A stretch of 64,000 nt of DNA from an uncultured Lachnospiraceae bacterium. Its GTDB lineage: Bacteria > Bacillota > Clostridia > Lachnospirales > Lachnospiraceae. The translations under genes and the position numbers were made by a program. This document shows, one piece after another, positions 1,311 through 64,000 of the stretch (position 1 is the first letter of the stretch; each line of letters starts with the position of its first letter). The notes beneath the pieces were generated by a model. It saw nothing but the letters and a program-made list of their open reading frames with translations. It did no database searches and was not told the DNA's origin. Where the stretch lies: contig CALWPY010000010.1 of NCBI GenBank assembly GCA_944383545.1, forward strand, positions 1 through 64,000. Reading direction: 5' to 3'.

Positions 1311-1394
1311 TCACCTCTATAATTTGACGTTAACATATATGATAACATTATACAAGAGAAAGGAAATCATAATTTTCGTAATTCGGAAAATCCA

Positions 1395-1424
1395 TCATAT
1401 ATACATCTCTTATTACTGTTTATT
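1395..1424 (-). repeat. Fossil CRISPR repeat beyond array end
   Basis: The stretch matches the array repeat at about 20 of 30 positions (shared ATACATCTC and TGTTTAT blocks). It ends exactly 36 nt before the first clear repeat at 1461, and 36 nt is a normal spacer length here. It is best read as the decayed leader-distal repeat with one remnant spacer at 1425-1460. Confidence 0.6.
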
Positions 1425-1460
1425 TTGTCACCCGTATAGTAGTTGGGAACATGGCACGAA

Positions 1461-4400
1461 ATTCAAATACATCTTATGTTATTGTTTATCCCAATCTCTT
1501 GGAAAGTTTGATGAATATTACGCTGATTCAAATACATCTCATGTTATTGTTTATCCGGACGGCGCCGTAAAGGCGCAGTCGCAGAGCGACAATTCAAATA
1601 CATCTCATGTTATTGTTTATCAGGCGCGGTTATAACATCTGGTGGAAGTATAGCCATATTCAAATACATCTCATGTTATTGTTTATCTTTGACTACTGTT
1701 CATCATTTGTTGCATAAACGCTATTCAAATACATCTCATGTTATTGTTTATCACAAGACCCGCTTGCGGTACCGCAGATACCTTGCCTATTCAAATACAT
1801 CTCATGTTATTGTTTATCATGTTGTTCATTATCGTTTTAAAGATTATTTTAGATTCAAATACATCTCATGTTATTGTTTATCTAGCGTTATAATCTACAA
1901 TAATTTTATGCACACGAAATTCAAATACATCTCATGTTATTGTTTATCGAACTATTGTTTTTAGGCACAAACCCATTCGTTTAATTCAAATACATCTCAT
2001 GTTATTGTTTATCTATTAGACAGCTTAAAAATAATACCTTTTTCTATATTCAAATACATCTCATGTTATTGTTTATCAAATTAAAAAAAGTGTCTTATAA
2101 GACAAATAATTATATTCAAATACATCTCATGTTATTGTTTATCAAACAATGCTTTCTTCCTGGTTTCTTGCAAACCTGCATTCAAATACATCTCATGTTA
2201 TTGTTTATCAGCTGTTTAAGCAGTATGATGTCGGGTTTGATTAATTCAAATACATCTCATGTTATTGTTTATCCATCTACCCCGTGGAGGAACAGCAAAA
2301 CTCTTGCATTCAAATACATCTCATGTTATTGTTTATCTTCGTATCTTCCAACAGGACTGCAGAAATATATATTATTCAAATACATCTCATGTTATTGTTT
2401 ATCATTTTGTGGATCGAGTTACTTAGTATCTATAAAAGAATTCAAATACATCTCATGTTATTGTTTATCTATAAAATTCTGTATTATTTCCCAAACAAAA
2501 ACATAATTCAAATACATCTCATGTTATTGTTTATCAAGACTGGAAGAAAAAATATGAAGAGTTAGACAGATTCAAATACATCTCATGTTATTGTTTATCT
2601 ATTAGCACAATTTTATCTTGTCTTAAATATTGTATATTCAAATACATCTCATGTTATTGTTTATCCGCTGTTGCAATATACTGTTAAGCAGGTCCTCACA
2701 TTCAAATACATCTCATGTTATTGTTTATCCAGAGGAGAGCCGTCTGAAGCAAGCAGTATTTCCATTCAAATACATCTCATGTTATTGTTTATCGTTATAC
2801 TCCTGACGGTATCATATCAGACGTCTAATTCAAATACATCTCATGTTATTGTTTATCCTCCTCCTTTTTATTAAATAAATCTTCGTATTTTTATTCAAAT
2901 ACATCTCATGTTATTGTTTATCCTCCATTTTTCCAAAAGGTCATTCCGTTATCGAAATTCAAATACATCTCATGTTATTGTTTATCACAGAAAACGCAAA
3001 CAATAAAACATCTACGATTGCATTCAAATACATCTCATGTTATTGTTTATCATTTCACGTTTCATAAACTCAGTTTCGGATTTTTCCATTCAAATACATC
3101 TCATGTTATTGTTTATCCCACCGTTCAATAACGGTTTCTACTGCCTCACACAAATTCAAATACATCTCATGTTATTGTTTATCAGATAACCGACATAGGG
3201 GACATAATAGAGGTTATATTCAAATACATCTCATGTTATTGTTTATCAAATGAGCAAATATACAACGGAAGTTAGATTCATATGATTCAAATACATCTCA
3301 TGTTATTGTTTATCCAAAACGTGGGTTGGACTGGATGGTCTAAAAATGGATTCAAATACATCTCATGTTATTGTTTATCAATACTTTGCAACTTCAATAC
3401 AAGCCTCTTTTGTGCATTCAAATACATCTCATGTTATTGTTTATCACAGAGCATATTCGGGGAAATGGGTTATCGAGGTATTCAAATACATCTCATGTTA
3501 TTGTTTATCATCACACATCATTGACAAACATTTGACTGTCAGTGATTCAAATACATCTCATGTTATTGTTTATCACCATTACCGGAGCCATATGAGCCGA
3601 AAGGAGAGATTCAAATACATCTCATGTTATTGTTTATCGAAAGTATTTTTTCCCGGCGCATACGGTTAGGACTATTCAAATACATCTCATGTTATTGTTT
3701 ATCTGCATAGGCATACAGGCGGCAAAGTGCTGATACTTATTCAAATACATCTCATGTTATTGTTTATCTCTATACAAAATTAACTACACCAACGGTTTTT
3801 GAATTCAAATACATCTCATGTTATTGTTTATCGAATACGTCTATTTCGTACGCAATTTCTGAAGTCATTCAAATACATCTCATGTTATTGTTTATCACCT
3901 TTCTTTAATGCCCAACGGACTATATCTTTTATTCAAATACATCTCATGTTATTGTTTATCGAGATGTAGTCGCTGAAATAGTGGAAACACACAAATTCAA
4001 ATACATCTCATGTTATTGTTTATCGAGCACAATAGGAGTTGCAACAAAAACAAAAGCATTATTCAAATACATCTCATGTTATTGTTTATCAAAAGCACTT
4101 AAAGCGTTAGGAATTTCACGCTTCAATTCAAATACATCTCATGTTATTGTTTATCGTATTGCCCTCACGGAAGCTCAAAAAATTAAAAAAAATTCAAATA
4201 CATCTCATGTTATTGTTTATCAGCAAAAGCTAGTACAGAAAAAGGAACAATGGGGAATTCAAATACATCTCATGTTATTGTTTATCCTTTAAAAATTTTA
4301 TTTGAACAAGGATTAACAAAAAATTCAAATACATCTCATGTTATTGTTTATCTCAGACAAATTAGAAAATAAGGAGGAGTAAAGCAAATTCAAATACATC

Positions 4401-5070
4401 TCATGTTATTGTTTATCATTGTGGAACAGATGTACTCGGCACACAATTACGAATTCAAATACATCTCATGTTATTGTTTATCTTTCAGAGGGGCAGACTT
4501 ATGACGGAAAATTAAGAAATTCAAATACATCTCATGTTATTGTTTATCCCTGCACCATTTAAAACAAACCCATTCGTTACCGCAATTCAAATACATCTCA
4601 TGTTATTGTTTATCCAGAACTGCTATTTTTAGGTACAAATCCATTTGTATAATTCAAATACATCTCATGTTATTGTTTATCAAATTTCAGCTCCATAACA
4701 CCGTCTGACAGCTTCATTCAAATACATCTCATGTTATTGTTTATCGTTTTTGGATAGGCTTTGATTGCGGGCATTGTTGATTCAAATACATCTCATGTTA
4801 TTGTTTATCAAGCAAGAATAGTGAACGTAAGGGAGGAATTTTTTGGATTCAAATACATCTCATGTTATTGTTTATCCTGTTACCGCTAATAGTAACTTGT
4901 CCAGATTCAACATTCAAATACATCTCATGTTATTGTTTATCAATAAATTATCAAAAAAAATATTAAGAGCAGATACATTCAAATACATCTCATGTTATTG
5001 TTTATCGGATTTCAAATGTTGTCGGAGCTGTTGTTACTCAATTCAAATACATCTCATGTTATTGTTTATC
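1461..5070 (-). CRISPR. Type I-B CRISPR array, 56 repeats, 55 spacers
   Basis: A 30-bp repeat beginning ATTCAAATAC and ending TTGTTTATC on the plus strand recurs every 64-67 bp, with unique 34-37 nt spacers between. I counted 56 copies, the first at 1461-1490 and the last at 5041-5070. Read on the minus strand the repeat ends in ATTTGAAT, which fits a type I-B 8-nt crRNA handle. The copy at 1461 has one C-to-T change, and a more degraded copy lies beyond it, so the old end is at 1461 and the leader lies at the 5070 side next to cas2. Precursor crRNA is therefore read on the minus strand. Confidence 0.97.
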
Positions 5071-5261
5071 CAAAATAAATATTACATTTATTACTACCAA
5101 TTATATCTAAACTACCTTTTATTTACAAGCAATATTCACTATTTTTACCAACCGGCACTATAATTTATCAAAATTATATAAAACATACAGCTTTTACCTT
5201 TATTTATTTACTTTCTTCAATATTTTTATAAATCCCGCCTGGTAAAAATCATTTAAAGGAA
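5071..5261 (-). promoter_or_regulatory. CRISPR leader with array promoter
   Basis: This is a 191-bp AT-rich region between the cas2 stop and the first repeat. On the minus strand it holds TTGTAA (5123-5128), a 17-bp gap, and TATAAT (5100-5105). That would start transcription about 23 nt before the first repeat. The position and the intact repeats on this side support leader identity. Confidence 0.7.
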
Positions 5262-5552
<291 letters not shown>

Positions 5553-6551
5553 TTAAAAACCTCCTTTTAAGCTATAAGGAATAAACTCTTTATCCTCCAT
5601 TATATATTTAATAAGCTTATAGCAATCCAATTTTATTGCTGTTCTATATGTAACCTTCCTTTTCAACTTAGGGTGTTCAAATACAGATTCCATTCTTCCT
5701 TCAAAAGCTTCAATAAATATCTTTCTGCCCTCGTCATTTAAAAGGCAATAATTTACCTTTTTATCAAAATGCTTATTAACTTGAATTTTTCTATTGTTCA
5801 CCAAATCAAAGATTGTCCTGTAAACTATTACCGGCTTAAAGACCTCACTCAAATCCAGACTTAAAGAAAATCTTCCTTCTGATGGTTCATGAAGAAAACT
5901 TATTCTCTGGTCCAAATGTGTCCTATATATGGCAGAAATAGTTTTTGTGTATAAAAGCGTATTTCCAAACGATATTAAAGCATTTATAGGATTATCCGGC
6001 GGTCTCTTTACTCTTTTATTCATAACAAAATCTTCAGGCAGAAAATATTTAAAATCATTATAAAACCGCATCCATAATTCTCCTTCTGCTGACATTAATG
6101 AACTTATATTTTCAGCTTTATCCACACTTATATAAAATGATTTTTTAATCCAATCAATAGTATTCTTTACCTCTTTTTTATCATGTTTATAATAGTGATA
6201 AAGTATTTCATATATATTAATACCTATTCCCTTTACAATAGCCTTAGCTATAACAATCCTGTCATTTTGAAACTTTTCCACCTGTTTTATAAGAAGTTTT
6301 CCACTCATATACTGCGATTTTGGATAAAATGTTCCGCTATATCCTTCATAATAATTAAAAAAGTGCACTACTATGTGATTTTGTGACAAGAAATCCAGTA
6401 ATTTACTGTTTATACTTACCTCATTAAGACAGTAAATCTCCTTAGTATTTTCAACAGGAATATATACATTTTTGCCGTTCTTCCTAAAACATAAGGAATT
6501 ATCCTTTCTGGTAAGCTCTCCCATTGATGAAATATATCTGGTACTTCCCAT
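5553..6551 (-). CDS. cas1: CRISPR-associated endonuclease Cas1, type I-B
   Basis: A 332-residue Cas1, normal length. An N-terminal beta domain is followed by the helical catalytic domain with the expected metal ligands: Glu in SAEGELWMRFY (about 156), His in FLHEPSEGR (about 221), and Asp/Glu in SLDLSEVFKP (about 233-236). Cas1 cuts and joins new spacers at the leader-proximal repeat together with Cas2 and, in this subtype, Cas4. AAGGAGG seven bases before the ATG supports the start. It lies 72 bp after cas4 in the same operon. All catalytic residues appear intact. Confidence 0.95.
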   Translation of the reverse strand: MGSTRYISSMGELTRKDNSLCFRKNGKNVYIPVENTKEIYCLNEVSINSKLLDFLSQNHIVVHFFNYYEGYSGTFYPKSQYMSGKLLIKQVEKFQNDRIVIAKAIVKGIGINIYEILYHYYKHDKKEVKNTIDWIKKSFYISVDKAENISSLMSAEGELWMRFYNDFKYFLPEDFVMNKRVKRPPDNPINALISFGNTLLYTKTISAIYRTHLDQRISFLHEPSEGRFSLSLDLSEVFKPVIVYRTIFDLVNNRKIQVNKHFDKKVNYCLLNDEGRKIFIEAFEGRMESVFEHPKLKRKVTYRTAIKLDCYKLIKYIMEDKEFIPYSLKGGF

Positions 6552-50422: not shown

Positions 50423-52105
50423 CTACAAGGGGACTCTTTGTAGCAGTACTACCGTCTCAACTGTTGTTTCGTTGTCCCAATCTAATTCGTATATCTCTTT
50501 CCCATTGAAAAATACAGGGAATCTAAACTTTAGACTACGAAGGATTCTTCCGTCCGCCTGCTCTTCCTCGTAAATACTCACATCCGCAAGGAAGCTCTTC
50601 ATAAATGTTTTCTTTTCAATATCCGTAAATTTGTCGTACAGCTTATCAAAGAATAATAAGAACTGGTACACATTGTCGCCGGATATTTTCTCCTGTCTAC
50701 TACAATACAGTCTGGTCTCCACTTCTTCAATCAGAGTTTCGATTTCTTCTATCTCATCATAAAGCTTGTCCAGACGCACCTGCATGTCCTCGTACTTCTT
50801 GTCATAATGCTTGTCGGATACGGATAAATTGTCCATCTGACTCGCCAGCTTATTCTTAGCACCGATTACTTGCTTTAAGCGTTCCTGTAAGCCTGTATGC
50901 TCTCTATCCAATTCCTGCGTATCAATGCTTTGTCCGATATGCTTCTTAATCTCTGTTTTGAACTTTGGATTATTCACTAGCTTACGGATAATCTCTTCCA
51001 CAGCCGCATTGATTTTATCCTCGCTCCACTGCTTGCGGTAAGTACATTTATGACCATTTACAAAGGTTCTGTGCTTGCAGGCATAGTAAAAATAGTCTTT
51101 GTAGTGTCCGCCGTCAGGATGCTTTTTACGATTTACATTACCATACATACCACTTCCACAGATAGGACATTTGATAATACCTGATAAAATATGCTCGTGA
51201 TCCAAGCTGTGAGTTTTGATGTTGGCAACTCCGGTTTCCTGTCTCTTTTTATGCACCTGATTCCACAATTCTTCTGACACAATGGCCTCATGGATACCGT
51301 CGTTAAGCATGTACTTGTCCTGCTTCACAATGTGGTACTCATTCCTTGTTCCCGGAATCTTCTCATTTTTTCTTCTGCCAAAAGCAAGCTTGCCACAGTA
51401 CACAGGATTATCCAATACACCTTTTACAAAGGATGTAGAAAAACCTTCTATGGTATTGTTCTGGCGAAGCTTTTTCTTGTATCCGCTGTTGTTTAGGAAT
51501 GTAGCGATGGCCGCAATTCCCATAGTGGTATTGGCAAACTTATCGTAGATAATCCGAATAATCTCCGCTTCATCTTCAGCAATGTGCAATTCGCCATTGA
51601 TAAGCTGATAACCATACGGAGCAAAACCACCGTTCCACTTACCTTCTCTGGCTTTCTGCCTGCGACCTTCCATTGTCTGCACCAATATATTCTCACGCTC
51701 TATTTCAGCCACCGCAGATAAGACGGAAATCATTAACTTACCTGCATCTTTAGAACTGTCGATACCATCTTCCACACAGATAAGATTAACACCAAAGTCC
51801 TGCATTCTCTGAAGGGATGATAAAACATCAGCTGCGTTTCGCCCAAATCGGGATAATTTGAATACAAGTACAAAATCGACATTGTCTTTACCAGATTCTA
51901 TGTCTTGAAGCATCTGTTGGAACTGTGATCTACCTTCCACACTTTTACCGGATTTACCTTCGTCAGAGTATTCACCGGCGATAATCATATCCTGATAATC
52001 AGCGTATTTATGTAATTTATCTTTTTGCGCATCTAAGCTGTAACCATCAACCTGCATGGAGGTGGATACACGGGCGTAGATGTAGCATCTCTGTTGTTTT
52101 TTCAT
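50423..52105 (-). CDS. Large serine recombinase
   Basis: About 560 residues. Resolvase domain with the catalytic Ser in YIYARVSTSMQVDGYSLDAQ, FKLSRFGRNAADVL and ENILVQTMEGRRQKA, then the recombinase domain (GFAPYGYQL, VLDNPVYCGKLAFG), a zinc ribbon (CPICGSGMYGN...YYACKHR...GHKC) and a C-terminal coiled coil. ATG at 52105 has AAGGAGG inside the end of the helicase gene. The last residues, VETVVLLQRV, resemble the ETVVLLS of RlmD-type genes, suggesting the att core lies here. Confidence 0.92.
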   Translation of the reverse strand: MKKQQRCYIYARVSTSMQVDGYSLDAQKDKLHKYADYQDMIIAGEYSDEGKSGKSVEGRSQFQQMLQDIESGKDNVDFVLVFKLSRFGRNAADVLSSLQRMQDFGVNLICVEDGIDSSKDAGKLMISVLSAVAEIERENILVQTMEGRRQKAREGKWNGGFAPYGYQLINGELHIAEDEAEIIRIIYDKFANTTMGIAAIATFLNNSGYKKKLRQNNTIEGFSTSFVKGVLDNPVYCGKLAFGRRKNEKIPGTRNEYHIVKQDKYMLNDGIHEAIVSEELWNQVHKKRQETGVANIKTHSLDHEHILSGIIKCPICGSGMYGNVNRKKHPDGGHYKDYFYYACKHRTFVNGHKCTYRKQWSEDKINAAVEEIIRKLVNNPKFKTEIKKHIGQSIDTQELDREHTGLQERLKQVIGAKNKLASQMDNLSVSDKHYDKKYEDMQVRLDKLYDEIEEIETLIEEVETRLYCSRQEKISGDNVYQFLLFFDKLYDKFTDIEKKTFMKSFLADVSIYEEEQADGRILRSLKFRFPVFFNGKEIYELDWDNETTVETVVLLQRVPL

Positions 52106-52112
52106 ATAGTTA

Positions 52113-55082
52113 TCAGCCTCCTTCAGATTCTGTTGTAGTGCCAAGTGAAATCTCTAACAGTTCTGCCGCCACCTGATGATTTTTGATACGCATTAAATTA
52201 TCCCATATATCTACCTTCCCAAGCAGATTCATACCTCCATGCCATACCAATTCATCATCTATAACAGCAAATCTTTCTTCAACTTCTGCCTTTGTTACTA
52301 CATTTATTCCCACCTGTTTCATTTCGTTTATCAACCCATAACATACATCCTCACTACCATAAACCACTTCTTCCGGGTCTGTTGTGATGACTGTTATAAG
52401 TACACCTTTTTCCTGACGGTCTTTGACTAACAATAACAATCTGTCAATCTTGTCCTGTCGTATATCCGGACTAGAAATTACAATTGATTTCTCCGCTTCT
52501 ACAATATCCTGCTCGAATTTTTCCGTATAATTACCAGAATCATATATAGCATTAATTATCTGCTTAGTATGTTCATCACCCGTCCATATGGAAAATCCGG
52601 TTCGCTTGTATGTTTTCAATCTTTTGCCATACATTTTATTAAAGAATCTCACATGGGCATCAATGTAATCATATACATAAACAGCTTCTTTCCCTTCGTA
52701 GTCACGATTTAATCTTCCTACATACTGTTCCAGACGCCCTTCAAAGGATACTGGTGCAGCAAGCATTAACACATCAAGTCTTGGGAAATCAAATCCCTCT
52801 CCTATCTTCTGTCCGGTTGCAACCAAAATAATGCTCTCTGTTCTAGGAACCTGCTTTAACTTTACTCGTATCTCTGTATTTTCCTTGTCTGAATTATCAC
52901 CATACAAAAGAAATATATGGTCAGCTTCATTTTTCAACGCATCATACAGAAGTTTTGCATGCTCCTTAAATCTGGTTAATATAACCGGAGTCTGATTCTG
53001 AGCAATACTTTTCTTCACATCACTTATAATCATATCATTACGTATCTTGCTTGTACTAATTAGACTATAAGCCTTGTTGATGTCATCTTTACTGTCAGCA
53101 GTGTCTACAACTCTTGTATACCTTGGTACAAAATAATGACCTATTCCCTGCTCCTGTGCTCTCTCCAATGCCGTAAATCTATGGCGAAGCGGTCCAAGTA
53201 GCATATAGATAATTTTATCTAAGCTATCTCCACGCTTCGGCGTCGCAGAAACTCCATATACATATTTGGCATTGATTTTCTGCAATAATTCCACAGACGT
53301 ATTGGATGCCGCATGATGACATTCGTCCATAATTACCATTCCATAAGAATTAATCAGGTCATTAAACTTACCTTTGCTATACATAGAGCCAACCATGGCA
53401 ACATCTACAATACCTGTCAATGTATTTTTACTACCATGCAAAATACCTATAACACTGTCTCTCTTTTTCTTTCTGCCTGTTTTGGTTTCATACTCCGGTG
53501 GTTCTTCCTTAATGTCCAAGAATTTGTTCAGCTCATCCACCCACTGATTCAGCAAATCCTTACTTTGTAATAAAATAAGAGTATTCACTTTGCGCTCCGC
53601 AATCAGATAACTACACACAACCGTTTTACCAAATGCAGTTGCTGCACTTAATACGCCATCTGAATAGGTCAGTAATTTTTCTGCTGCCAGTTCCTGCTGT
53701 GTCCGTAAATCACCTTTAAACGAAACTCTTATAGGACGCCCCTTTTCCCTTTGGTCAGATATTTCAACAGAAATTCCAGCTTTATTACACTCATCTATAA
53801 TCCGTTCTATTAGCCCTCTTGGAATTTGTATGTAGCCATCAATGTCTTTTCCCAAATATACAGCACTAAAATTATAGTAATTGGAATATCCCAGTCTCTT
53901 ATTTTTATAAAATTCCGGATTATCAAAAGCAGCCAGACTGCGAATCTGATTTTGTATTCTCGGCATAAGATTTAGCGTGTCAATGTAAACACCATTACTA
54001 AGCACCATATGTAGCTTACCAACCACATCCGCCTTAACAAACTCACACTTCTTTTTCCATGGTTTTGGTCTGTTATTTATATCGGTACCAGCAAGCATTC
54101 CCCGACTTTCTGCCAACTCTGCCTGCCATTTTGCCATATATTTTTCAATATCCTCTATACCTAATTTTTCTGTTTTATTCAGCAAAACATCCCACTGATT
54201 CGGATAGGCATTCCAGTTTTCATCCACAAATGCACTGTTACCATTTTTAAGTGCCTGTCCCTGCAAGGGCAATGCAATTAGATTCCCGATACTGCTTGCC
54301 ACATCCTGAGACGGATACATTCTGTCATAGTAATGAAAGGATTTTAAGTTAATAGATGCAGAACCTTTATCTAATAACAGAAATCCAAAATTTCTGGCTA
54401 CAGAAGCCGGTATTGCTTTCTTAAAGAAAATCCATACATGAGCACCTTTACCGGAACGAGAACGCTCTACCAATGGCCTAATACCATTTATCTCGCACAT
54501 TTTTCTAAGAGCATCCACTTCTTTATGCCACTCGTTATCTGTATTGGCAAAATCTGTCGCTTCTGCACCTTTTTCATGATTATCAAAATCAAATACAATA
54601 AATCTACACATCCCATTAGGCAACAGCGGATATACACCTATTACATCTGAGCCATCCTCTTTATACCCTAATAGATGTGCAATAATCTTCTTAACATCCA
54701 GCCGTGTCCACTTGGTATTTTCACATTCATCACAGAAAACCTTTTCACCTCTTTGTTTCGGACAAAGTCTGGCATCCCATCTATTATCACATTGCGGGAA
54801 ATAACCACCGTTCTTACCACGCTTGGCATAAACATCCTCTCGTCCCCAAAACATAGAAAAGAAGTGTGTCGCCATTTCCTCTGTTATAAACGCGGGATTG
54901 ACGATACGTTCTCCCTGATCAGGATCGTACTCTTCCACATTATCCATCGTCTCTTCAAAAGGATTTACCTCGTCATACGGAATATTTTCTTTCTTCAGTT
55001 TATCTTTCAGTATTCTATTTTCATACTCAAGGAGTCTGACGAGCTTTCTTAAAGACTCTGCATCATATGCTTCTATATTCAC
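52113..55082 (-). CDS. Primase-helicase-PLD protein, TOTE conflict-system type
   Basis: About 990 residues. N-terminal short coiled coil, a Cys cluster (CDNRWDARLCPKQ, FCDEC), an archaeo-eukaryotic primase-like domain with IVFDFDNHEKG and RSRSGKGAHVWIFF, then an SF2 helicase (ATAFGKT, MDECHH, SATPKR, QYVGRLNRDYEG at about 480-800) and a C-terminal degenerate PLD-like domain (LVWHGGMNLLG). This architecture fits proteins grouped as TOTE conflict systems, thought to defend against foreign DNA. GTG at 55082 with AGGTGA is favoured over a GTG 9 bp earlier. It is coupled to the serine recombinase. Confidence 0.85.
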   Translation of the reverse strand: MNIEAYDAESLRKLVRLLEYENRILKDKLKKENIPYDEVNPFEETMDNVEEYDPDQGERIVNPAFITEEMATHFFSMFWGREDVYAKRGKNGGYFPQCDNRWDARLCPKQRGEKVFCDECENTKWTRLDVKKIIAHLLGYKEDGSDVIGVYPLLPNGMCRFIVFDFDNHEKGAEATDFANTDNEWHKEVDALRKMCEINGIRPLVERSRSGKGAHVWIFFKKAIPASVARNFGFLLLDKGSASINLKSFHYYDRMYPSQDVASSIGNLIALPLQGQALKNGNSAFVDENWNAYPNQWDVLLNKTEKLGIEDIEKYMAKWQAELAESRGMLAGTDINNRPKPWKKKCEFVKADVVGKLHMVLSNGVYIDTLNLMPRIQNQIRSLAAFDNPEFYKNKRLGYSNYYNFSAVYLGKDIDGYIQIPRGLIERIIDECNKAGISVEISDQREKGRPIRVSFKGDLRTQQELAAEKLLTYSDGVLSAATAFGKTVVCSYLIAERKVNTLILLQSKDLLNQWVDELNKFLDIKEEPPEYETKTGRKKKRDSVIGILHGSKNTLTGIVDVAMVGSMYSKGKFNDLINSYGMVIMDECHHAASNTSVELLQKINAKYVYGVSATPKRGDSLDKIIYMLLGPLRHRFTALERAQEQGIGHYFVPRYTRVVDTADSKDDINKAYSLISTSKIRNDMIISDVKKSIAQNQTPVILTRFKEHAKLLYDALKNEADHIFLLYGDNSDKENTEIRVKLKQVPRTESIILVATGQKIGEGFDFPRLDVLMLAAPVSFEGRLEQYVGRLNRDYEGKEAVYVYDYIDAHVRFFNKMYGKRLKTYKRTGFSIWTGDEHTKQIINAIYDSGNYTEKFEQDIVEAEKSIVISSPDIRQDKIDRLLLLVKDRQEKGVLITVITTDPEEVVYGSEDVCYGLINEMKQVGINVVTKAEVEERFAVIDDELVWHGGMNLLGKVDIWDNLMRIKNHQVAAELLEISLGTTTESEGG

Positions 55083-55121
55083 GAATATCACCTACAATTC
55101 TTATGTGCTTAATCCCCTTTG

Positions 55122-55436
55122 CTACCTGTGTAAAAGAAAATCTACACTTTCTTTTAATTCATCACTAAAATCTGCCAAATCAGCAGTTGTGATTACACCA
55201 CTATTAATCAATGCCACAATATCGAAAATCATATTCCCTTTGCTTAATTCGAGCATTACTCCCGGATGTTTCTTATCCTTTTTTATTCGTTCTTCCAGCT
55301 TCCAGAACTTATCTGAAGCATTCTCTTCACCTTCTAATAAATCCATATATTCCTTAACCAAGCGTTCCATATACGCTTCCTGCCAATCCCCAATAGAAGT
55401 TCTAAATAATTTCCAATCGCTTTTTGAAACTTCCAT
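55122..55436 (-). CDS. Small conserved accessory protein
   Basis: 104 residues, helical: KSDWKLFRTSIGDWQEAYME, KFWKLEERIKKDKKHPGVML, VALINSGVITTADLADFSDE. Proteins of this type recur beside helicases in clostridial mobile elements. ATG at 55436 has GGAGG eight bases upstream. It precedes the primase-helicase gene by 39 bp, so it may be part of the same system. Function unknown. Confidence 0.65.
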   Translation of the reverse strand: MEVSKSDWKLFRTSIGDWQEAYMERLVKEYMDLLEGEENASDKFWKLEERIKKDKKHPGVMLELSKGNMIFDIVALINSGVITTADLADFSDELKESVDFLLHR

Positions 55437-55542
55437 GTAAACAACCTCCAATCTTATGCATTGATTTCATATGTTTTTTATTATCCCAACACAATTATAC
55501 ACCTGTTCCAACTATCTTTCAACACCGTTTCTTATAAGCAAA

Positions 55543-55571
55543 CCTCGGTAAAAGTTAAAATTCTACCGAGG
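55543..55571. terminator. Terminator after abiEii
   Basis: CCTCGGTA and TACCGAGG form an 8-bp stem with a 13-nt AT-rich loop, immediately downstream of the AbiEii-type gene. Confidence 0.5.
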
Positions 55572-55590
55572 TATACCTAATTACTCTTAT

Positions 55591-56394
55591 TTAACAAATT
55601 TTCCCCATAAACTCCAAAATCCCCTCCGTCACAACACCAATTTCTTCATCAATCCATCTTTTATCTGAAGTATCAAGTCTATGAATGTAACTCTTATCAC
55701 TAAAAGCGATTTTTAATCTCCTAACTATATCATTCCCGGTATTTTCCTTCATCGTTGTGTCATTGAATATATATGTATCCAAAGCTACCATCAATTTTTC
55801 TCTATTAACAGAATCCTTCAAGTAATACATATCATATACATCCTTATACCTTGTTGAAAATGGCCCAAATTTAAGAAGCGAACGCAATTTTTCTGCTAAC
55901 ATCTGCTCATCAGAATTAATCAACAAGCTTGCTCCTTCATCATCGTACGCAATATCGAAACAATATTCTTCCTGCTCCAATTCAAATCGATTATGTACAC
56001 CTAAATCAATCTTACTTCTGACTTGATTCCCCTCTGTATCTTCAATCAAAATGAATACTTGCTTTCCGCTATAATCCTGTTGCTTCAACTCTTCAATCTT
56101 ACCCAACCTGCTAATCTTGATTCCATCAAGACAATTCAGCTTGCTTATAAACGCATCTATCGATTCATCTGCCAAGGAATACTTAATAAAATCAATGTCC
56201 AAGTCCTGCGTAGCTCTTCTAACATTATTGGTCTTGCTGCGCATAACCACACCACCCTTAATTGTTACATTTCTACTCAGCGGTCCAACTGATAATGCTT
56301 TTAATACAATATCCTGGCATACTTTCGCAGATGCCTTATCTCCCTGATAACCGTTTTCATTTGCTTCCTCAATCAACTTCTGTATATTAACCAT
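55591..56394 (-). CDS. abiEii: AbiEii/AbiGii-type nucleotidyltransferase toxin
   Basis: 267 residues with the minimal nucleotidyltransferase core: VTIKGGVVMRSKT (GG motif) and RRATQDLDIDFIKY (DxD). Further conserved features are KIDLGVHNRFELE and LAEKLRSLLKFG. AbiEii enzymes act as toxins in abortive infection, likely by adding nucleotides to tRNA. Its ATG overlaps the stop of the antitoxin gene (TAATG). Confidence 0.88.
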   Translation of the reverse strand: MVNIQKLIEEANENGYQGDKASAKVCQDIVLKALSVGPLSRNVTIKGGVVMRSKTNNVRRATQDLDIDFIKYSLADESIDAFISKLNCLDGIKISRLGKIEELKQQDYSGKQVFILIEDTEGNQVRSKIDLGVHNRFELEQEEYCFDIAYDDEGASLLINSDEQMLAEKLRSLLKFGPFSTRYKDVYDMYYLKDSVNREKLMVALDTYIFNDTTMKENTGNDIVRRLKIAFSDKSYIHRLDTSDKRWIDEEIGVVTEGILEFMGKIC

Positions 56395-56936
56395 TATAAA
56401 ACCTCCAATCTTAAGATCTCCATAACCGTGTTGGATTTTGGTAATTCATACGCATATTCCGCAACTAAAGTCATATCCAACTCATGAACAATTCTTCTAT
56501 AACTCGCAATTATTTCTTTATAAAAATCAAAAGAAAATTTTCTTTTATTTCGTATCAATTCCACAAGAAGACGCTCTTTATCATAAATCACAATATCCAC
56601 ACCATCATAATTCATCTTGGTTTTTCCCATGTCAAAGGCTTTGCTATTTTCATAAAATTGCTTCACCCTTTCATCACTGATTTTTCTTGTGTTTTTCGGT
56701 GTGGCAACATAATAAAAATCAGGTATGGTATCCGTTAAACCATAATAATAAAAGGCACTATTCAGCGTAATAATTGCATTGGGATATTTCTTAGAAATAA
56801 TCTCCAGCTCCGGTACATATCTCTTATCTGAATAGATTCCCTTTTCTTTTACATACAGTTCCCCTTCTTGAACATGTTTTTTTATTTTATAATCTGTTCC
56901 ATATTTTTCCAAACATTCCTGATATGATAGTAACAT
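56394..56936 (-). CDS. abiEi: AbiEi-type antitoxin/regulator
   Basis: 180 residues. YVKEKGIYSDKRYVPELEII, IITLNSAFYYYGLTDTIPDF and DIVIYDKERLLVELIRNKRK are typical of Abi_C/AbiEi antitoxin proteins, which repress their own promoter through an N-terminal winged HTH. The N-terminal region (LLSYQECLEKYGTDYKIKK) is the probable DNA-binding part. Operator dyads flank the promoter upstream. Confidence 0.82.
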   Translation of the reverse strand: MLLSYQECLEKYGTDYKIKKHVQEGELYVKEKGIYSDKRYVPELEIISKKYPNAIITLNSAFYYYGLTDTIPDFYYVATPKNTRKISDERVKQFYENSKAFDMGKTKMNYDGVDIVIYDKERLLVELIRNKRKFSFDFYKEIIASYRRIVHELDMTLVAEYAYELPKSNTVMEILRLEVL

Positions 56937-57410: not shown

Positions 57411-57645
57411 AACTTCCCTCCTTCCATAATCGCTTCTGCATCTTTTCGTCCGATAAGTCATCTATGACTTCTTGTCTTAATGATACAACTATGAATTGGA
57501 AAAAGCAATGATTCCGGCGAGAAAAAATTTCCTAAGTCATTTAAATTTCTTTAGGTGTCTTTTGCTAGATACGCATTTTGTATATCCATCGCAAAATGCA
57601 TCTAGTTAGGGGCAAAATCCCCTAAAACCCTGGATATTTATATAG

Positions 57646-57823
57646 GTGTGTCACTTTTTGACACACTTTTTGAAAAAGTACGCCACTTTTTGACACACCT
57701 TTTGGAAAAGTGCTCCACTTTTTGGCACACCTTTTTTAAAGATAATTTTTTGCGCCTTGGATGGTGTGTCACTTTTTGACACACCTTTTGAAAAATGGCT
57801 CCACTTTTTGACACACCTTTTTA
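57646..57823. repeat. Five iteron-like repeats, 32-bp period
   Basis: CACTTTTTG(A/G)CACAC begins at 57652, 57684, 57716, 57770 and 57802: steps of 32, 32, 54 and 32 bp. Copies 1 and 4 extend to GGTGTGTCA-CTTTT-TGACACAC(C/T), a perfect or near-perfect hairpin. The stretch 57462-57645 before it has no gene. It could be a replication or transfer origin, or a partition site, of the mobile island. Confidence 0.7.
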
Positions 57824-57854
57824 CAAGAACAAATTTCCTTCAAAAAAAGAATTC

Positions 57855-57938
57855 ATAATTTACATTATGAGAAGTTCGCCGATGGAACAGTGAAATGCAT
57901 TGAAGATGAGATACCGTTTGAAGTGCCGGAAGGGTGGG
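57855..57938 (+). repeat. 84-bp inverted repeat, left copy
   Basis: Reads identically to the minus strand of 62044-62127, starting ATAATTTACATTATGAGAAG and ending GGAAGGGTGGG. It lies at the start of the first TRD in both cassette A and hsdS. Confidence 0.85.
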
Positions 57939-58591
57939 AATGGTGTAGATTTGGTAGTGTTGTTACTTTGATGAGCGGGACAACGTATCCTGCGGAGAAA
58001 GAACTTCTATCTGGAACTCGTTTGTATGTAAAAGTAGGAGATATGAATCTTCCAGGGAACGAATATGAAATCAGTACATCCTCACGCTATCTTGATGAAT
58101 ATAATATTTCGCATTTGATACCAGTTAATAGTGTCATTTTTCCAAAACGAGGTGGAGCAATCGCAACTAACAAAAAAAAACTTGTACTGCGAGATGAAAT
58201 CCTAATTGATTTGAATACGATGGCATTTACGCCAATTTCACCAGTAAACCTGATGTATTGTTACTACTGGTTTCTTTCTATTGATTTGGGTAAAATCAAT
58301 AGCGGGTCCAGTGTACCGCAAATCAATAACAAAGATATTGAACCTCTTTTGTTCCCAGTTCCTCCTACTTTCGAGCAAGAGCGAATTGTACAGGCTATAG
58401 TTCCTCTATTAGATGCAGAACAAAAGATCAGTGCTGCAGGAGTTGAAGTCACGCAAATAATCAGTCGAGCTAAAGCTAGAATCCTCGACCTTGCTATTCG
58501 TGGTCAGATTGTACCACAAAATCCGGATGACGAGCCAGCTTCTGTACTCTTAGAGCGTATCCGTGCAGAAAAAGAAGAACTGATAAAACAG

Positions 58592-58654
58592 GGTAAAATC
58601 AAGCGAGATAAGAAGGAATCCATCATCTTCCGAGGTGATGATAACTCTTATTAT
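58592..58654 (+). repeat. 63-bp inverted repeat, left copy
   Basis: Identical to the minus strand of 61304-61366 (starts GGTAAAATCAAGCGAG, ends ACTCTTATTAT). It lies just before the second TRD, with imperfect homology continuing toward the central repeat. Confidence 0.85.
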
Positions 58655-59234
58655 CGTTATAAAGGAGAAAAAGAGGTTTGTATTGATGATGATTTACCTT
58701 ATAAACTTCCAGATGGATGGATATGGGCTATATTGCCAGAAGTAGTATTATTTCAAGAAGGTCCAGGTATACTAAAAAAAGATTTCAGAGATGAAGGTAT
58801 TCCTTTAATTCGTATTTCAGGTTTGCAATCTGACAAAGTTCTTTTGGACGGATGTAATTATTTAGATCCTGTTATGGTTGAAAACAAGTGGAAACATTTT
58901 AAACTTGAATTGGGAGATATAATATTGTGTACAAGTGCCTCTATAGGCAAAGCTTCAATTGTTGGTCCAGAAGCTGTGGGGGCAATACCATACACTGGTC
59001 AAATAAGGTTTAAGATGACCCAAGCTCTCATACGAGAATATTTTTTGTATTTTGCTAATTCAAATACTTACCTAAATCAGATTAATCGTATGAAAACAGG
59101 AAATTGCATACAGCATTATGGACCAACACATTTAAAAGAAGTGTATATACCAATACCACCTTTTAAAGAGCAAGAACGAATTATAAAACAAGTAGCTTCA
59201 TTACTTTCATCAATTCATGAAATAGAAGAAAGCA

Positions 59235-60038
59235 TTACCATGTAACAATCTTGTCAATCAAGGACTGCTGCTCTGTGGCAGTCCTTCTTAAATATATTCT
59301 TGTTGTTTCTATACTTTCATGCCCCATAAGGTCTGCAAGCAGAGCAATATCGTTGTATTTTTCCAAGAAATTTTTCGCATATAAATGCCTAAACGAATGT
59401 GGATAGATTACTTTTGAATCTAAACCATATTTATCAGCATAATTCTTAAGTTGCTGTGATATGCCACGTGCGGTAATACGTTCACCGAAACGATTTAAAA
59501 ATAGATACCCAGTTGTGCGTTGTTCTTCTAATAACCATTTCTGTGTTTCTTCCCGAAGCTTCTTTGGAATATACAATCGGCGCAGCTTGCCACCTTTGCT
59601 GTATAGGTCAAAATAACCAAGATTAACATGCTCTATTTTTATACGGATAAGTTCACTTACTCTTGCTCCAGTAGCACCTAAATACCATACAACAAAATAC
59701 CACTGCATATTACCATCTCTTTTCAACTGCTTTTTCAGAAATGTGTAATCTGCATTGCTTACAACATTTTCTAAAAATATTTTCTGCTGAATTTTAACTG
59801 CGCTTAATCGTAATTTGTCCTTTCCAATGTAGTCCAAATACTTGTTGATTGCTTGTATTCTAAGGTTTACGGTTTTAGGTTTGAAAAATTCCATCAAGTA
59901 TCCTTTGTATGCGTGAAGATTCTCAATGTTAAAATCTTTATAATTGGTTATAAAATAGTCTACCGTCCATAAATACACAGAAATCGTATGCTGTGATAGA
60001 TTTTCCTTCTTCAAATAGTCTTCAAATGATTGTTTCAT
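59235..60038 (-). CDS. Tyrosine recombinase (hsdS invertase)
   Basis: 267 residues. N-terminal SAM-like domain (SFEDYLKKENLSQHTISVYL), catalytic Arg in GATGARVSELI, Lys in SKGGKLRRLYIP, HSFRHLYAK, MGHESIETT and Tyr in TRIYLRR: all active-site residues present. ATG at 60038 has GGAGG six bases upstream. It sits between the two silent hsdS cassettes and inside the segments that would invert, as in known type I hsdS inversion systems. Confidence 0.9.
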   Translation of the reverse strand: MKQSFEDYLKKENLSQHTISVYLWTVDYFITNYKDFNIENLHAYKGYLMEFFKPKTVNLRIQAINKYLDYIGKDKLRLSAVKIQQKIFLENVVSNADYTFLKKQLKRDGNMQWYFVVWYLGATGARVSELIRIKIEHVNLGYFDLYSKGGKLRRLYIPKKLREETQKWLLEEQRTTGYLFLNRFGERITARGISQQLKNYADKYGLDSKVIYPHSFRHLYAKNFLEKYNDIALLADLMGHESIETTRIYLRRTATEQQSLIDKIVTW

Positions 60039-60096
60039 TCTGTACCTCCAATTGATGTGAATGTTAGCGAAATTCTTTGTCAATTGAAATTATAAT

Positions 60097-60705
60097 ATGG
60101 TCAAGAATGCTGTTTTCTCTTATTATGAGAAGTTTTTCGATGACAAGGAGCGTTGCATTGACGAAGAACTGTTATTTGAATTACCAAATGGTTGGGAGTG
60201 GTGTAATTTATCTATGATTGGAACTACTAATATTGGACTTACATATCGACCAACAGATATTATTGATGACGGTACGATTGTTTTGCGTTCAAGCAATATA
60301 GTAAATGATAAAATTGATTTAGATGACTTAGTTCGTGTGAAAACCCAAATTAGAGATAATCAGTATGTTCAGCCTAATGATATTTTGATATGTGCAAGAA
60401 ATGGTAGTAAGGCGCTTGTTGGAAAATGTGCTCTTATTGGCAATATGGAAGAGCCAGCATCATTTGGTGCATTTATGGCTGTTTACAGAACAGACTATTA
60501 CAAGTATGTTTTACATTATCTTCGTTCCAATTTGTTTCGCAACGTGTTTAACGATAGCAACTCAACAGCAATTAATCAGCTAACACAAGATATGCTAAAA
60601 AGAGCAGTAATTCCGTTTCCGCCATTTGAAGAACAACAACGAATTGTGGATTTGATAGACAAACTATTATTACAAATAAAGGACATAGAAAGGAGCCTCA
60701 ACTAA
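60097..60705 (+). pseudogene. Silent hsdS cassette B (second TRD only)
   Basis: About 200 codons: FSYYEKFFDDKERCIDEELL, LPNGWEWCNLSMI, a TRD, and IPFPPFEEQQRIVDLIDKLL to the stop. It corresponds to the second half of HsdS. No promoter or ribosome site. CTCTTATTATGAGAAG at 60117-60132 is shared, inverted, with hsdS (61298-61313), so it can be exchanged as a third second-TRD choice. It overlaps hsdS tail-to-tail by 8 bp. Confidence 0.85.
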
Positions 60706-62320
60706 GGCTCTTTTCTATGTTATAAAGTTTGGTATAAAATGAAATTATATAATGCATTATACGCTTTTGCTCTTGAATAGGTGGTAATGGAACAAGTAAC
60801 TGTTTCAATGTCAAAGGCTTTAATTCCTTTTGGTTTGTTGAACCTTCCCCCATTTTTTCTAGTTCACTTTGCAGTGCTTTCAGAAAAATATAAGCATAGT
60901 CCGAATTGATGCAATTGTATGTCCTGATTACCGTAACGTGAGAGTCCGGGACAATAGGAGAATTTTTAATATTGTCTGAAGCTCTATAAATTCCAACTCT
61001 ACCCAAAGTACCTGTACCCGTTGAATTGATAACCGTATCTCCATCTTGCATATATTCATCATCAGAATACTTTTTTAAAGTAGCTTCATCAAGATATAAT
61101 GCTAAACTTATATTTATTCCGTCGTATTTTGTATTACATTTTTGAGCAAAGACAAGTGTATTACCTATATCTGAATATTTAGGAGATTTTCCTCGTTTTA
61201 TTTCCTTTGAACAACAATTTTCAAGCCTGCACCAACTCCAATTATCGGGAACATCAAACGGTATTTCCTCGTCTATACAACGTATTTCATCACCTATCTT
61301 CTCATAATAAGAGTTATCATCACCTCGGAAGATGATGGATTCCTTCTTATCTCGCTTGATTTTACCTTGTTTTATCATTTCTTCTTTTTCTGCACGTATA
61401 CGTTCCAAGAGTACAGATGCTGGCTCGTCATTCGGGTCTTGTGGTACAAGTTTACCACGAATGGCAAGGTCAAGAATTTTTGATTTAGCTACCGACAGAA
61501 TTGTTTGCAAGTTTTCTTTTTCCATTTGTAATTTTTCTACATGGACAAGTGCTTTTTGAACCGCTTGAACAATGCGTTCCTGTTCATAAGTAGGCGGCAG
61601 GATGCAAAGATAGTTCATTGCTGTTGATATTGTAATAGTATCAACGGTTGTTCCCTTAGAGTTATCTTTCATTTGTGCTTGAATAAAGCTGGATTCAAGT
61701 AATATACGTGCGAATTCAGAATGCACAGCTCCAGTTCTATTCTCGAAACATAAAACACTTGCATCTTTGTAGTAAAAACGATCGTTAGATTTCACAATAT
61801 AAACCTTACCGATAGTCCCCACACCTGAAACCATTAAGTCACCTGGTTGTGGTACTCCATAGTCTCTGCTGAGAGAAACAAAATGCTCCTCTGAAATAAA
61901 AAGTTCGTTGTCTACAAAGCCATTATCGGATAACTTAACAATTTCACGTGCTCTATAAAAAGGAATCCCCGCCGTTTTCCATTCAGATTGAAGGACGCGT
62001 TTACTCGAACAAACATTGAAAATGTTTTTGAGCCTTGTCCACGCCCACCCTTCCGGCACTTCAAACGGTATCTCATCTTCAATGCATTTCACTGTTCCAT
62101 CGGCGAACTTCTCATAATGTAAATTATCCTCACCCACAAAGATAATTGTATCATTCTTAATATCCTTAGCTTTCAGCTTTCCTTCTTTCACCATCTGCTT
62201 TTTCTGCTCACGGATACGCTCCAGTAATACAGATGCCGGTTCATCATTCGGATCCTGTGGAACTAATTTACCACGAATAGCAAGGTCAAGAATTTTTTGT
62301 CTTAATGCTTTTGTATCCAT
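60698..62320 (-). CDS. hsdS: Type I restriction specificity subunit HsdS
   Basis: 540 residues: N-terminal helical conserved region (KILDLAIRGKLVPQDPNDEP), TRD1 from about 85, EQERIVQAVQKAL, central repeat with the same KILDLAIRGKLVPQDPNDEP, then TRD2 and C-terminal IQEQKRIMHYIISF. Each TRD reads half of a bipartite site. The start overlaps the hsdM stop (TAATG). It carries the inverted-repeat mates for both silent cassettes, so this sequence is one of several possible forms. Confidence 0.93.
   Translation of the reverse strand: MDTKALRQKILDLAIRGKLVPQDPNDEPASVLLERIREQKKQMVKEGKLKAKDIKNDTIIFVGEDNLHYEKFADGTVKCIEDEIPFEVPEGWAWTRLKNIFNVCSSKRVLQSEWKTAGIPFYRAREIVKLSDNGFVDNELFISEEHFVSLSRDYGVPQPGDLMVSGVGTIGKVYIVKSNDRFYYKDASVLCFENRTGAVHSEFARILLESSFIQAQMKDNSKGTTVDTITISTAMNYLCILPPTYEQERIVQAVQKALVHVEKLQMEKENLQTILSVAKSKILDLAIRGKLVPQDPNDEPASVLLERIRAEKEEMIKQGKIKRDKKESIIFRGDDNSYYEKIGDEIRCIDEEIPFDVPDNWSWCRLENCCSKEIKRGKSPKYSDIGNTLVFAQKCNTKYDGINISLALYLDEATLKKYSDDEYMQDGDTVINSTGTGTLGRVGIYRASDNIKNSPIVPDSHVTVIRTYNCINSDYAYIFLKALQSELEKMGEGSTNQKELKPLTLKQLLVPLPPIQEQKRIMHYIISFYTKLYNIEKSLS
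61304..61366 (-). repeat. 63-bp inverted repeat, right copy
   Basis: Mate of 58592-58654. The outer end also contains the 16-bp sequence (61298-61313) shared with cassette B. Confidence 0.85.
62044..62127 (-). repeat. 84-bp inverted repeat, right copy
   Basis: Mate of 57855-57938, located at the junction of the N-terminal conserved region and TRD1 of hsdS. Confidence 0.85.
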
Positions 62321-63750
62321 TATTCTTCCACCTCTCCTATAAGTGCTTCCAGCTCGGTTACAGCTTTAGATATGTTCGCTGATTTTTCCTTTATCTGTTC
62401 TAATAACTCTGCCAGAGTATAATCATCCGCCCCGGTATCACTCTTCATCCAAGTAATATCAAGGCTTGTCTTATCTCTTGCCAAAATCTCCTCATAGGTA
62501 AATTTTCTCCATCTACCGTTTGGATTCTCCTCGCTGTATGTTTCTTTACGGGCAGATAAATCACCATCTGCATAGCAAGCTACGAAATCGTCAAAATCCT
62601 CTTTTTTCAATGGATTCGTCTTACCAAAAGAAGGCATATCATTTCTAAGGTCATATATCCATACTTCTTTTGTATTGTCTTTATCAGTCTTTCCTCTTGT
62701 AAAGAAAAGAACATTTGTCTTAACACCCTGAGCATAAAAAATACCGGTAGGCAGTCTAAGGATTGTGTGTAAATTACACTTTTCCATCAAGTCCTTACGA
62801 ATACGCTCACCATCGCCATCTGCGAATAATACATTATCAGGAAGAACCACTGCAGCTCTCGCCTTACCATCAGTATTTAAACTTCTGTAAATATGTTGTA
62901 AAAAGTTCAATTGCTTATTGCTTGTAGGGAAAGTAAAGTCATCTCTGGTTGCACGTTCTCCACCCTTCTTTGTTCCAAATGGTGGATTTGTAAGTACCAC
63001 ATCATACCCCTTCATATCCTTACCGGCATTAGACAAAGTATCTGCAAGCTTAATCTCACCTTCAATGTCATGCAACATTGCATTCATCAATGCAAGTCTA
63101 TGAGTATCATGAACCAACTCACTTCCCGTAAATGCCTCTTCTCTTTCAAATTTTGCTGTATCAGCATCCAATTCGAATAAATCATCAGTATTCTCACGCA
63201 CATACTGACTTGCTGAAATCATAAATCCAAATGTACCACAAGCAGGGTCATTACAACGTTCACCTGGTTGAGGTTTTACCAATCTAGTCATAACATCAAT
63301 TAAAACTCTTGGTGTAAAATACTGACCAGCTCCGGATTTCTTTTCATTCGCATTTTTCTCTAATAACCCTTCATAGAGATTTCCCAATCCCTCTTCACGG
63401 GCAGAAAACCAATCAAGCCCATCAATTGTTGTAATAATCTTCTCAAGATTCTTAGGCTCATCAATATTAGTTGCTGAACCCTGATAAATCTCACGCACAC
63501 GACCGGTACAGTTCTCACCCAGATGATTTAATAACTCCTTATAAAACTTTTTCAGTTCCACACCACTCTTAGATTTTAAAACATCCCAGCGATAACCTTC
63601 CGGAATCTGCGCTTCTGCTCCTGTTTCTTTTGCCATTTTTAAGAACAAAATATATGTGAGCTCCGTTACATATTGGTGATATGTAATTCCATCATCTCGT
63701 AATACATTACAGAGATTCCAGAGCTTTGATACAATTTCCTGTGTTGTCAT
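62320..63750 (-). CDS. hsdM: Type I DNA methyltransferase subunit HsdM
   Basis: 476 residues of the N6-adenine methyltransferase family. GAGQYFTPRVLIDVMTRLV, motif I DPACGTFGFMISASQYV (Phe where Gly is usual in GTGGF) and motif IV VVLTNPPFGTKKGG. HsdM methylates the site that HsdS recognises and is also needed for cleavage by HsdR. It overlaps hsdS by one base and hsdR by four, so the three form one operon read leftward. Confidence 0.95.
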   Translation of the reverse strand: MTTQEIVSKLWNLCNVLRDDGITYHQYVTELTYILFLKMAKETGAEAQIPEGYRWDVLKSKSGVELKKFYKELLNHLGENCTGRVREIYQGSATNIDEPKNLEKIITTIDGLDWFSAREEGLGNLYEGLLEKNANEKKSGAGQYFTPRVLIDVMTRLVKPQPGERCNDPACGTFGFMISASQYVRENTDDLFELDADTAKFEREEAFTGSELVHDTHRLALMNAMLHDIEGEIKLADTLSNAGKDMKGYDVVLTNPPFGTKKGGERATRDDFTFPTSNKQLNFLQHIYRSLNTDGKARAAVVLPDNVLFADGDGERIRKDLMEKCNLHTILRLPTGIFYAQGVKTNVLFFTRGKTDKDNTKEVWIYDLRNDMPSFGKTNPLKKEDFDDFVACYADGDLSARKETYSEENPNGRWRKFTYEEILARDKTSLDITWMKSDTGADDYTLAELLEQIKEKSANISKAVTELEALIGEVEE

Positions 63751-64000
63751 GCGGTTCTTCCTCCATCATCGTACAGATACTCATTAAGTTCTATTACGAC
63801 ACTTTCTAATTTATTTCCAAATACTTTATTTATCTTTGCAAATCCACCCTGTGACTTAAAACGGCTGTCTTCATCAAAAACCTGTACATTAAGTACTGAT
63901 TCATTCAAAAGATAATCTTCCATACGCTTAATCCAATTTTGCTCCTGCATAGTAAAGGTATGTGCCTTGCGTAATCTATCAACAGCTTTTCTAATTCTTG
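63747..64000 (-). CDS. hsdR: Type I restriction subunit HsdR, C-terminal part
   Basis: The frame is open through the window edge: RIRKAVDRLRKAHTFTMQEQ, then IKRMEDYLLNESVLNVQVFD, FKSQGGFAKINKVFGN. This is the C-terminal helical region of HsdR, which couples to the methylase. The ATG at 63950 is internal, not a start. The helicase and nuclease parts lie beyond the window. Stop overlaps the hsdM start (ATGA). Confidence 0.85.
   Translation of the reverse strand, partial: RIRKAVDRLRKAHTFTMQEQNWIKRMEDYLLNESVLNVQVFDEDSRFKSQGGFAKINKVFGNKLESVVIELNEYLYDDGGRTA

Follow-up and report, generated by a model that had tools for sequence, protein, structure and literature searches.

Can a single type I restriction locus change its own DNA specificity, and by what rule would it choose the parts that it exchanges? 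Here, we address these questions for the hsdS region near the end of a 64,000-nucleotide stretch of contig CALWPY010000010.1 from an uncultured Lachnospiraceae bacterium (hereafter, the window), in which a full-length hsdS gene is opposed by two further hsdS segments and accompanied by a gene for a tyrosine recombinase of the PsrA kind. We regard it as highly probable that this recombinase inverts DNA between sites at the starts of the target recognition domains (TRDs), such that the expressed hsdS combines either of two TRD1s with any of three TRD2s, giving six specificities in eight arrangements. Directly established are the anatomy of the locus, the exact repeats, the six open HsdS forms, and a natural inversion of the shortest, 16-bp repeat pair in a close relative. 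A clone able to switch among six methylation and restriction specificities would be affected in its phage defence and gene uptake, and possibly in its gene expression; what is established for such systems leads us to expect a mixture of methylation and restriction specificities within one population. Moreover, the 6-bp spacer that recombining sites appear to share would provide a sequence-defined, testable rule for which sites recombine and a route to predict switches from assemblies.

Gene order, inverted repeats, and predicted HsdS forms

hsdR, hsdM, and one full-length hsdS are adjacent on the minus strand (Table 1). The window ends within hsdR, and the complete gene (1089 aa) sits just past its edge (L041 13748-17017). 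From the position of this hsdS behind hsdM, we infer that it is the expressed copy. Opposed to it are two extra hsdS genes that lack the N-terminal part. Cassette A has two TRDs and cassette B a single one, and both are presumably silent; the recombinase gene lies between the cassettes. Same-class TRDs within the window are only 23-30% identical to one another and, therefore, each swap exchanges a recognition half. The preliminary description of this DNA had noted a complete tyrosine recombinase in between. Indeed, the open reading frame (ORF) is complete, matches PF00589, and carries the R, K, HxxR, and H..Y motifs of the tyrosine recombinase family at 139, 164, 228, and 254. The protein is 67.9% identical over 265 aa to the annotated PsrA of S. 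dysgalactiae. Because many homologs align from about residue 15-18, its true start may be the ATG at residue 16. A terminator-like hairpin marks the point at which the expressed hsdS and cassette B converge; terminator-like sites were not above chance (2 found versus 2.7 expected in shuffles).

Three pairs of inverted repeats connect these genes: the 84-bp pair links TRD1 of the expressed gene and of cassette A, the 63-bp pair serves TRD2 of cassette A, and the 16-bp pair serves cassette B. As described earlier, the 84- and 63-bp repeats between hsdS and cassette A are perfect, and such repeats are not a product of chance within 5 kb. The former is embedded in an 89-nt pair at 98% and the latter in a 259-nt pair with 81% complementarity. 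The repeats had also been placed exactly before the TRDs; to be more precise, the proposed crossover lies at the start of the 84-bp repeat and at the end of the 63-bp repeat.

We inverted the native DNA in silico at the three pairs, recombining like repeat with like only and continuing until arrangements were exhausted. This gave eight arrangements and six distinct open HsdS proteins of 523-540 aa. Inversion at the 84-bp pair swapped both TRDs, while inversion at the 63-bp pair swapped TRD2 only, reproducing what the preliminary description had predicted; the 16-bp pair admitted cassette B. Its count of 2 x 3 = 6 forms was likewise borne out by the six open forms, although the 16-bp repeat of cassette B had gone unnamed.

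Table 1. Positions of the genes, inverted repeats, and proposed sites (window numbering, except for the flagellin-side pairs, which are numbered in their own loci)
Feature	Position	Strand	Details
Expressed hsdS (inferred)	60698-62320	-	PF01420 in two stretches; 540 aa, two TRDs, full N-terminus; directly after hsdM
hsdM	62320-63750	-	PF02384/PF12161
hsdR, 3' end	63747-64000	-	Gene continues beyond the window
Cassette A	57855-59245 (ORF from GTG 57890 to 59245)	+	Two TRDs, without N-terminal segment; PF01420
Cassette B	60097-60705	+	Single TRD (TRD2); PF01420
Tyrosine recombinase, PsrA kind	59235-60083	-	PF00589; 282 aa; TTG start
Terminator-like hairpin	60693-60710	-	Convergence point of expressed hsdS and cassette B
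84-bp inverted repeat, cassette A copy	57855-57938	+	Exact
84-bp inverted repeat, expressed copy	62044-62127	-	Exact
63-bp inverted repeat, cassette A copy	58592-58654	+	Exact
63-bp inverted repeat, expressed copy	61304-61366	-	Exact
16-bp inverted repeat, cassette B copy	60117-60132	+	Exact
16-bp inverted repeat, expressed copy	61298-61313	-	Exact
Proposed site, expressed TRD1	62107-62134	-	GGTGAGGATAA-TTTACA-TTATGAGAAGT
Proposed site, expressed TRD2	61297-61324	-	GGTGATGATAA-CTCTTA-TTATGAGAAGA
Proposed site, cassette A TRD1	57848-57875	+	AGAATTCATAA-TTTACA-TTATGAGAAGT
Proposed site, cassette A TRD2	58634-58661	+	GGTGATGATAA-CTCTTA-TTATCGTTATA; right arm diverged
Proposed site, cassette B	60106-60133	+	AATGCTGTTTT-CTCTTA-TTATGAGAAGT; left arm diverged
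Inverted 11-6-11-like site pair before flagellin, L082	8913-9114
Inverted 11-6-11-like site pair before flagellin, L102	8949-9154
Inverted 11-6-11-like site pair before flagellin, L103	8948-9152

A natural inversion and the sites of exchange

A near-identical locus is present in CAMEUH010000014.1 (L043), a metagenome-assembled genome (MAG) labelled Eubacteriaceae. Compared with the window, L043 is 99% identical in the recombinase, 99.7% on the hsdM side, and 98.2% on the cassette A side, and the common stretch from hsdS through hsdR into the next gene is 99.1% identical over 6041 bp. Window positions 60117-61313 are inverted in L043, with 1197 of 1197 bases identical and with limits that correspond exactly to the 16-bp pair, the only pair for which we observed inversion between these strains. 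Therefore, the hsdS behind hsdM in L043 ends in the TRD of the window's cassette B, and the window's expressed TRD2 occupies the place of cassette B. Thus, the switch has turned in nature. The preliminary description had reckoned with two outcomes that would speak against a switch, one fixed orientation in all strains and repeats that are not identical; instead, L043 carries the inverted segment, and the 84- and 63-bp pairs are exact. The expressed TRD1 of L043 is a third allele that shares 30% and 27% identity with the window's two TRD1s, so TRDs also pass between strains by other means. Adjoining cassette A, window positions 57645-57821 contain a repeated palindrome, GGTGTGTCACTTTTTGACACACC, around which the alignment to L043 needs gaps; one further copy with 1 mismatch is found elsewhere in the genome (C1:349605).

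One scan of a genome collection yielded 115 recombinase relatives, the best 80 of which were kept as loci. The fetched stretch contained HsdS-like ORFs in 69 of the 80 loci and none in 11. Of the 69, 35 have the recombinase flanked by two opposed hsdS genes and 10 have it outside the inverted hsdS pair (nine of the ten are Bacteroidota by record title), while 24 loci were cut or could not be assigned. Relative to hsdM, which was in view in the 29 loci scored of the 35, the inner block is oriented as in the window in 12 and oppositely in 17. A first count of 21 versus 20, with 1 other, was replaced because loci with the recombinase outside the inverted pair cannot change this orientation. On a quick recombinase tree of 30 rows, window included, the orientation label changed 9 times compared with a shuffled mean of 9.9, and 183 of 500 shuffles were as low. 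Inner-block orientation thus shows no clustering by lineage, which is what frequent turning of the block would lead to.

At the TRD starts of the 80 loci, the DNA reads 11 bp, then 6 bp, and then TTATGAGAAGN, with TTATGAGAAG as the usual arm (11-6-11). Right arms vary least at TRD1 sites and half-cassette sites; at the TRD2 sites of full genes, they have often diverged. In the window, the core ATTATGAGAA is present at four of five sites, and cassette A TRD2 keeps only ATTAT. Within the HsdS ORFs of the 80 loci, the Glu codon of the peptide [YH]YE[KQ] is GAG in 179 of 179 sites (63 loci), and the Lys codon is AAG in 154 of 163. By comparison, in other conserved peptides of the same ORFs GAG was used in 64/115, 36/72, 8/56, 47/97, and 10/25 cases and AAG in 42/105, 32/65, and 4/56. 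In a wider set that includes shorter loci, GAG was found at [YH]YE[KQ] in 188 of 191 cases. This codon usage indicates that the codons at the site are constrained at the DNA level, beyond the protein.

Most likely, the locus-encoded PsrA-type recombinase pairs two inverted sites of equal spacer, and strand exchange would occur within the 6-bp spacer, after which the DNA between the sites would be inverted. The recombinase would act on 11-6-11 sites with the arm TTATGAGAAG, and exchange only between sites with the same spacer (TTTACA at TRD1 and CTCTTA at TRD2) would keep the HsdS halves in register. By analogy to the pneumococcus, the recombinase may be strictly required for the short pair alone.

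To compare spacers, we used a pattern in which positions 5-6 were fixed as T/C and A; non-fitting loci were uncounted, and a locus was scored if it yielded at least one two-site gene. For the TRD1 site, the two copies had the same spacer in 27 of the 27 loci that could be tested; for the TRD2 site, this was again so in 27 of 27. The half-cassette spacer equalled the TRD2 spacer in 30 of 30 cases, and the TRD1 spacer differed from the TRD2 spacer in all 45 scored loci. Ten spacers were found for TRD1 and nine for TRD2. TTCTCA is the TRD2 spacer in L013, L015, and L016 and the TRD1 spacer in L114; thus, a spacer is not bound to one protein position. In 24 of 26 cases, the half cassette becomes identical to the opposed TRD2 exactly from the first base of the spacer onward; in L112, the identity between the two full TRD2 copies stops right after CTCTTA. 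From these counts, we infer the equal-spacer rule.

Related loci in nine records of Enterococcus faecalis plasmids (L160-L168) narrow the point of exchange. Here, a one-base variant of the right arm is located in a full hsdS in L160, L161, L162, and L166 and in the half cassette in L163, L164, L165, L167, and L168. Right arms change places and left arms stay, so the exchange in these natural inversions fell within CGCCTATTAT, a 10-bp crossover interval that includes the spacer. The eight complete records have at least six block orders. This plasmid shufflon has two half cassettes and is found in several arrangements among closely similar records, some of which have tet(O) nearby.

Similar sites are found outside hsdS. 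In three of the 11 loci without HsdS (L082, L102, and L103), a recombinase relative 70-75% identical to that of the window lies upstream of a flagellin gene (PF00669, PF00700), and inverted 11-6-11-like sites 149-166 nt apart with a common 6-bp spacer are located between the two genes. In each pair, the 11-bp arms of the first site are nearly palindromic, e.g., AGTTCTCATAA-TATGTA-TTATAGGAACA in L082; the second site retains one arm (TTATGGGAAGA in L082 and TTCTGGGAATA in L102 and L103). Because these sites are non-coding, the 11-6-11 form is no by-product of HsdS codons. The segment between them is probably an invertible promoter; a scan of it gave a promoter-like match in L103 only and none in L082 or L102. 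Site scans of two other HsdS-less loci, L083 and L087, revealed no such site pair.

We lean, if only slightly, toward a general reading of these data. In this reading, the PsrA-family site would be a dif-like 11-6-11 sequence written into hsdS codons, the spacer would serve as an address code that keeps domains in register, and, with the flagellin-side sites included, the enzyme would be a general inverton recombinase with sequence-predictable targets. We did not find the spacer rule or the site definition in the open literature; most subscription papers, including a 2019 J Bacteriol paper on PsrA target sequences, were outside this coverage and, therefore, we claim no priority. The address code and the site definition are a possible addition to what is known.

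Competing explanations and distribution

The alternative that fares best is that the long repeats (84 and 63 bp) invert independently of the recombinase and RecA as in the pneumococcus, while the recombinase is needed for the 16-bp pair only. The available portion of PMC6620402 describes that pneumococcal 85- and 333-bp repeats recombine without recombinase and without RecA and that only the 15-bp pair strictly needs the recombinase; in the D39 creX mutant, 333-bp events (12.7% versus 15.8%) and 85-bp events (1.7% versus 1.2%) were kept, while all 15-bp events were lost. Similarly, IR2 and IR3 inversions were intact after psrA deletion in the part available of PMC4948785, and the sole natural inversion seen at our locus is that of the short pair. 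However, the same 11-6-11 core lies within or at the end of each of the long repeats, and this core is codon-constrained at the DNA level. Moreover, excerpts of PMC7096588 report that purified PsrA inverts all three pairs in vitro and cite a later in vivo study in which IR2 and IR3 inversions were dramatically reduced without PsrA. We consider this alternative possible, but unlikely.

It is very improbable that the TTATGAGAAG core, which encodes YYEK where the TRD starts, is a signature of the protein instead of a recombination site. The core does encode a conserved peptide. Of 391 genomes of the window's class, just 1, the window's own, has the codon-neutral pattern G[DE]DNx[YH]YE[KQ], so no HsdS genes without linkage to a recombinase could serve as a codon control. 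Also, KEEL, a peptide in the same ORFs that has no site, is codon-biased. Nevertheless, codon choice is near-invariant at the core and mixed in most other counted peptides, and similar arms with a 6-bp spacer are found in the non-coding DNA at the flagellin genes. Finally, we reject, with hardly any residual probability, that the repeats are remnants of an hsdS duplication kept alike by gene conversion in a now static locus: the 63-bp repeat does lie inside a longer homologous stretch and the assembly does have a single arrangement, but the inversion in L043 is clean, the recombinase ORF is complete with catalytic motifs, all six HsdS forms are open, and inner-block orientation is unclustered on the recombinase tree.

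Several observations, in addition to the pneumococcal data on long repeats, weigh against an active, recombinase-driven switch with equal-spacer sites. The genome assembly of the window displays one arrangement only, and L043 is a MAG with a different TRD1 allele and, hence, not the same strain as the window. At two of the five window sites, one of the arms has diverged. The bias in KEEL goes the opposite way (AAA 52/56, GAA 48/56). With positions 5-6 forced, the spacer scan scored 45 of 81 loci (the 80 and the window), and the difference between TRD1 and TRD2 spacers could stem from the different residues encoded there. Of the 27 inner branches in the orientation tree, 12 are weak, and those with good support require no more than 3 changes. 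Lastly, L132 and L145 (G077) carry TTCTCA|TTATGAGAAGT sites, yet their genome gave no recombinase match at E<=1e-30; thus, site and enzyme are not always together.

The recombinase is sparse in the window's class, with matches at E<=1e-60 in 7 of 391 genomes. Six of these seven lack the codon-neutral peptide pattern, so either distant recombinases use other sites or genes, or the pattern missed sites. The closest records are MAGs labelled Eubacteriaceae or Lachnospiraceae. Among the compared loci, the pneumococcal layout is found across many Bacillota genera and in other phyla, and variant layouts are found in Bacteroidota. When viral contigs were queried, HsdS gave no relative and the recombinase gave one, L123. 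This IMG/VR contig, labelled viral, has a similar hsdS switch at 82-5795, in which the site is part of an exact 20-bp inverted pair; L172 (MT836828), also labelled viral, has a recombinase relative and paired sites.

Defence-like genes neighbour the locus at window positions 50423-56936, i.e., a large serine recombinase, a TOTE-type primase-helicase, and an AbiEii-like nucleotidyltransferase with an adjacent partner ORF. The serine recombinase (50423-52144) ends in VETVVLLQ, which resembles VETVVLLS in a 563-aa protein (L041 17770-19461) that we take to be RlmD; a search for an att-site duplication linking this recombinase to rlmD found no repeat. A second type I system is present at G000 C8:5-547 (L005/L042), its hsdS cut by the contig end.

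Comparison with known systems

The Xer/dif system uses a 28-bp site with a 6-bp centre, as does the proposed window site. Compared with the E. coli dif sequence, 17 of 22 arm positions match in the TRD1 site of the window and 15 of 22 in the expressed TRD2 site; one unrelated 28-mer of the window also scores 17 and several score 15, and the likeness is only suggestive. The recombinase matches solved XerC-like, XerA, XerD, and XerH proteins but falls below the curated Xer cut-offs (XerC, 98.4 versus 335 bits; XerD, 85.4 versus 330 bits; XerA likewise). Unlike Xer/dif, the window locus has several sites, which would be used for inversion.

Plasmid pRUMAL02 of Ruminococcus albus 7 (NC_014825) has the same order, hsdR-hsdM-hsdS-half cassette-recombinase-hsdS, and its recombinase is 79.6% identical to that of the window. 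Its TRD2 spacer, CTCTTA, is the same as in the window, while its TRD1 spacer, TTTGCA, differs; also unlike the window locus, this one is on a plasmid, which is typed conjugative. More widely, according to a systematic REBASE survey, as excerpted from PMC7394358, ~6% of type I systems, including those of Ruminococcus species, have a duplicated hsdS together with inverted repeats. Bacteroides fragilis and Mycoplasma pulmonis are described in the available parts of PMC4948785 and PMC6620402 as shuffling hsdS with a recombinase.

The closest counterpart is cod/SpnIII (Spn556II) of Streptococcus pneumoniae, for which the accessible portions of PMC7096588, PMC4948785, and PMC6620402 describe the same six genes, i.e., hsdR, hsdM, three hsdS, and a tyrosine recombinase (PsrA, also named CreX and IvrR). 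The inverted repeats are of 15, 298 or 333, and 85 bp in the pneumococcus and of 16, 63, and 84 bp in the window, the middle one being much shorter here. The 10-bp cores, ATTATGGGAA in the pneumococcus (excerpt of PMC6620402) and ATTATGAGAA in the window, differ by one base. The pattern of our proposed site, with T/C and A required at spacer positions 5-6, detected none at the shufflon of S. dysgalactiae, the repeats of which read differently. In the pneumococcus, inversions are described to generate eight arrangements (PMC4948785, in part) and six versions of the enzyme (PMC6620402, in part); the numbers of arrangements and of expressed alleles are those obtained in silico for the window. The preliminary description had held that the principle of shuffling was known from other type I systems; in keeping with this, layout, repeat sizes, and core match those of cod/SpnIII. 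Altogether, as judged from sequence, the window locus has every feature of cod/SpnIII that is open to such analysis and belongs to that known kind.

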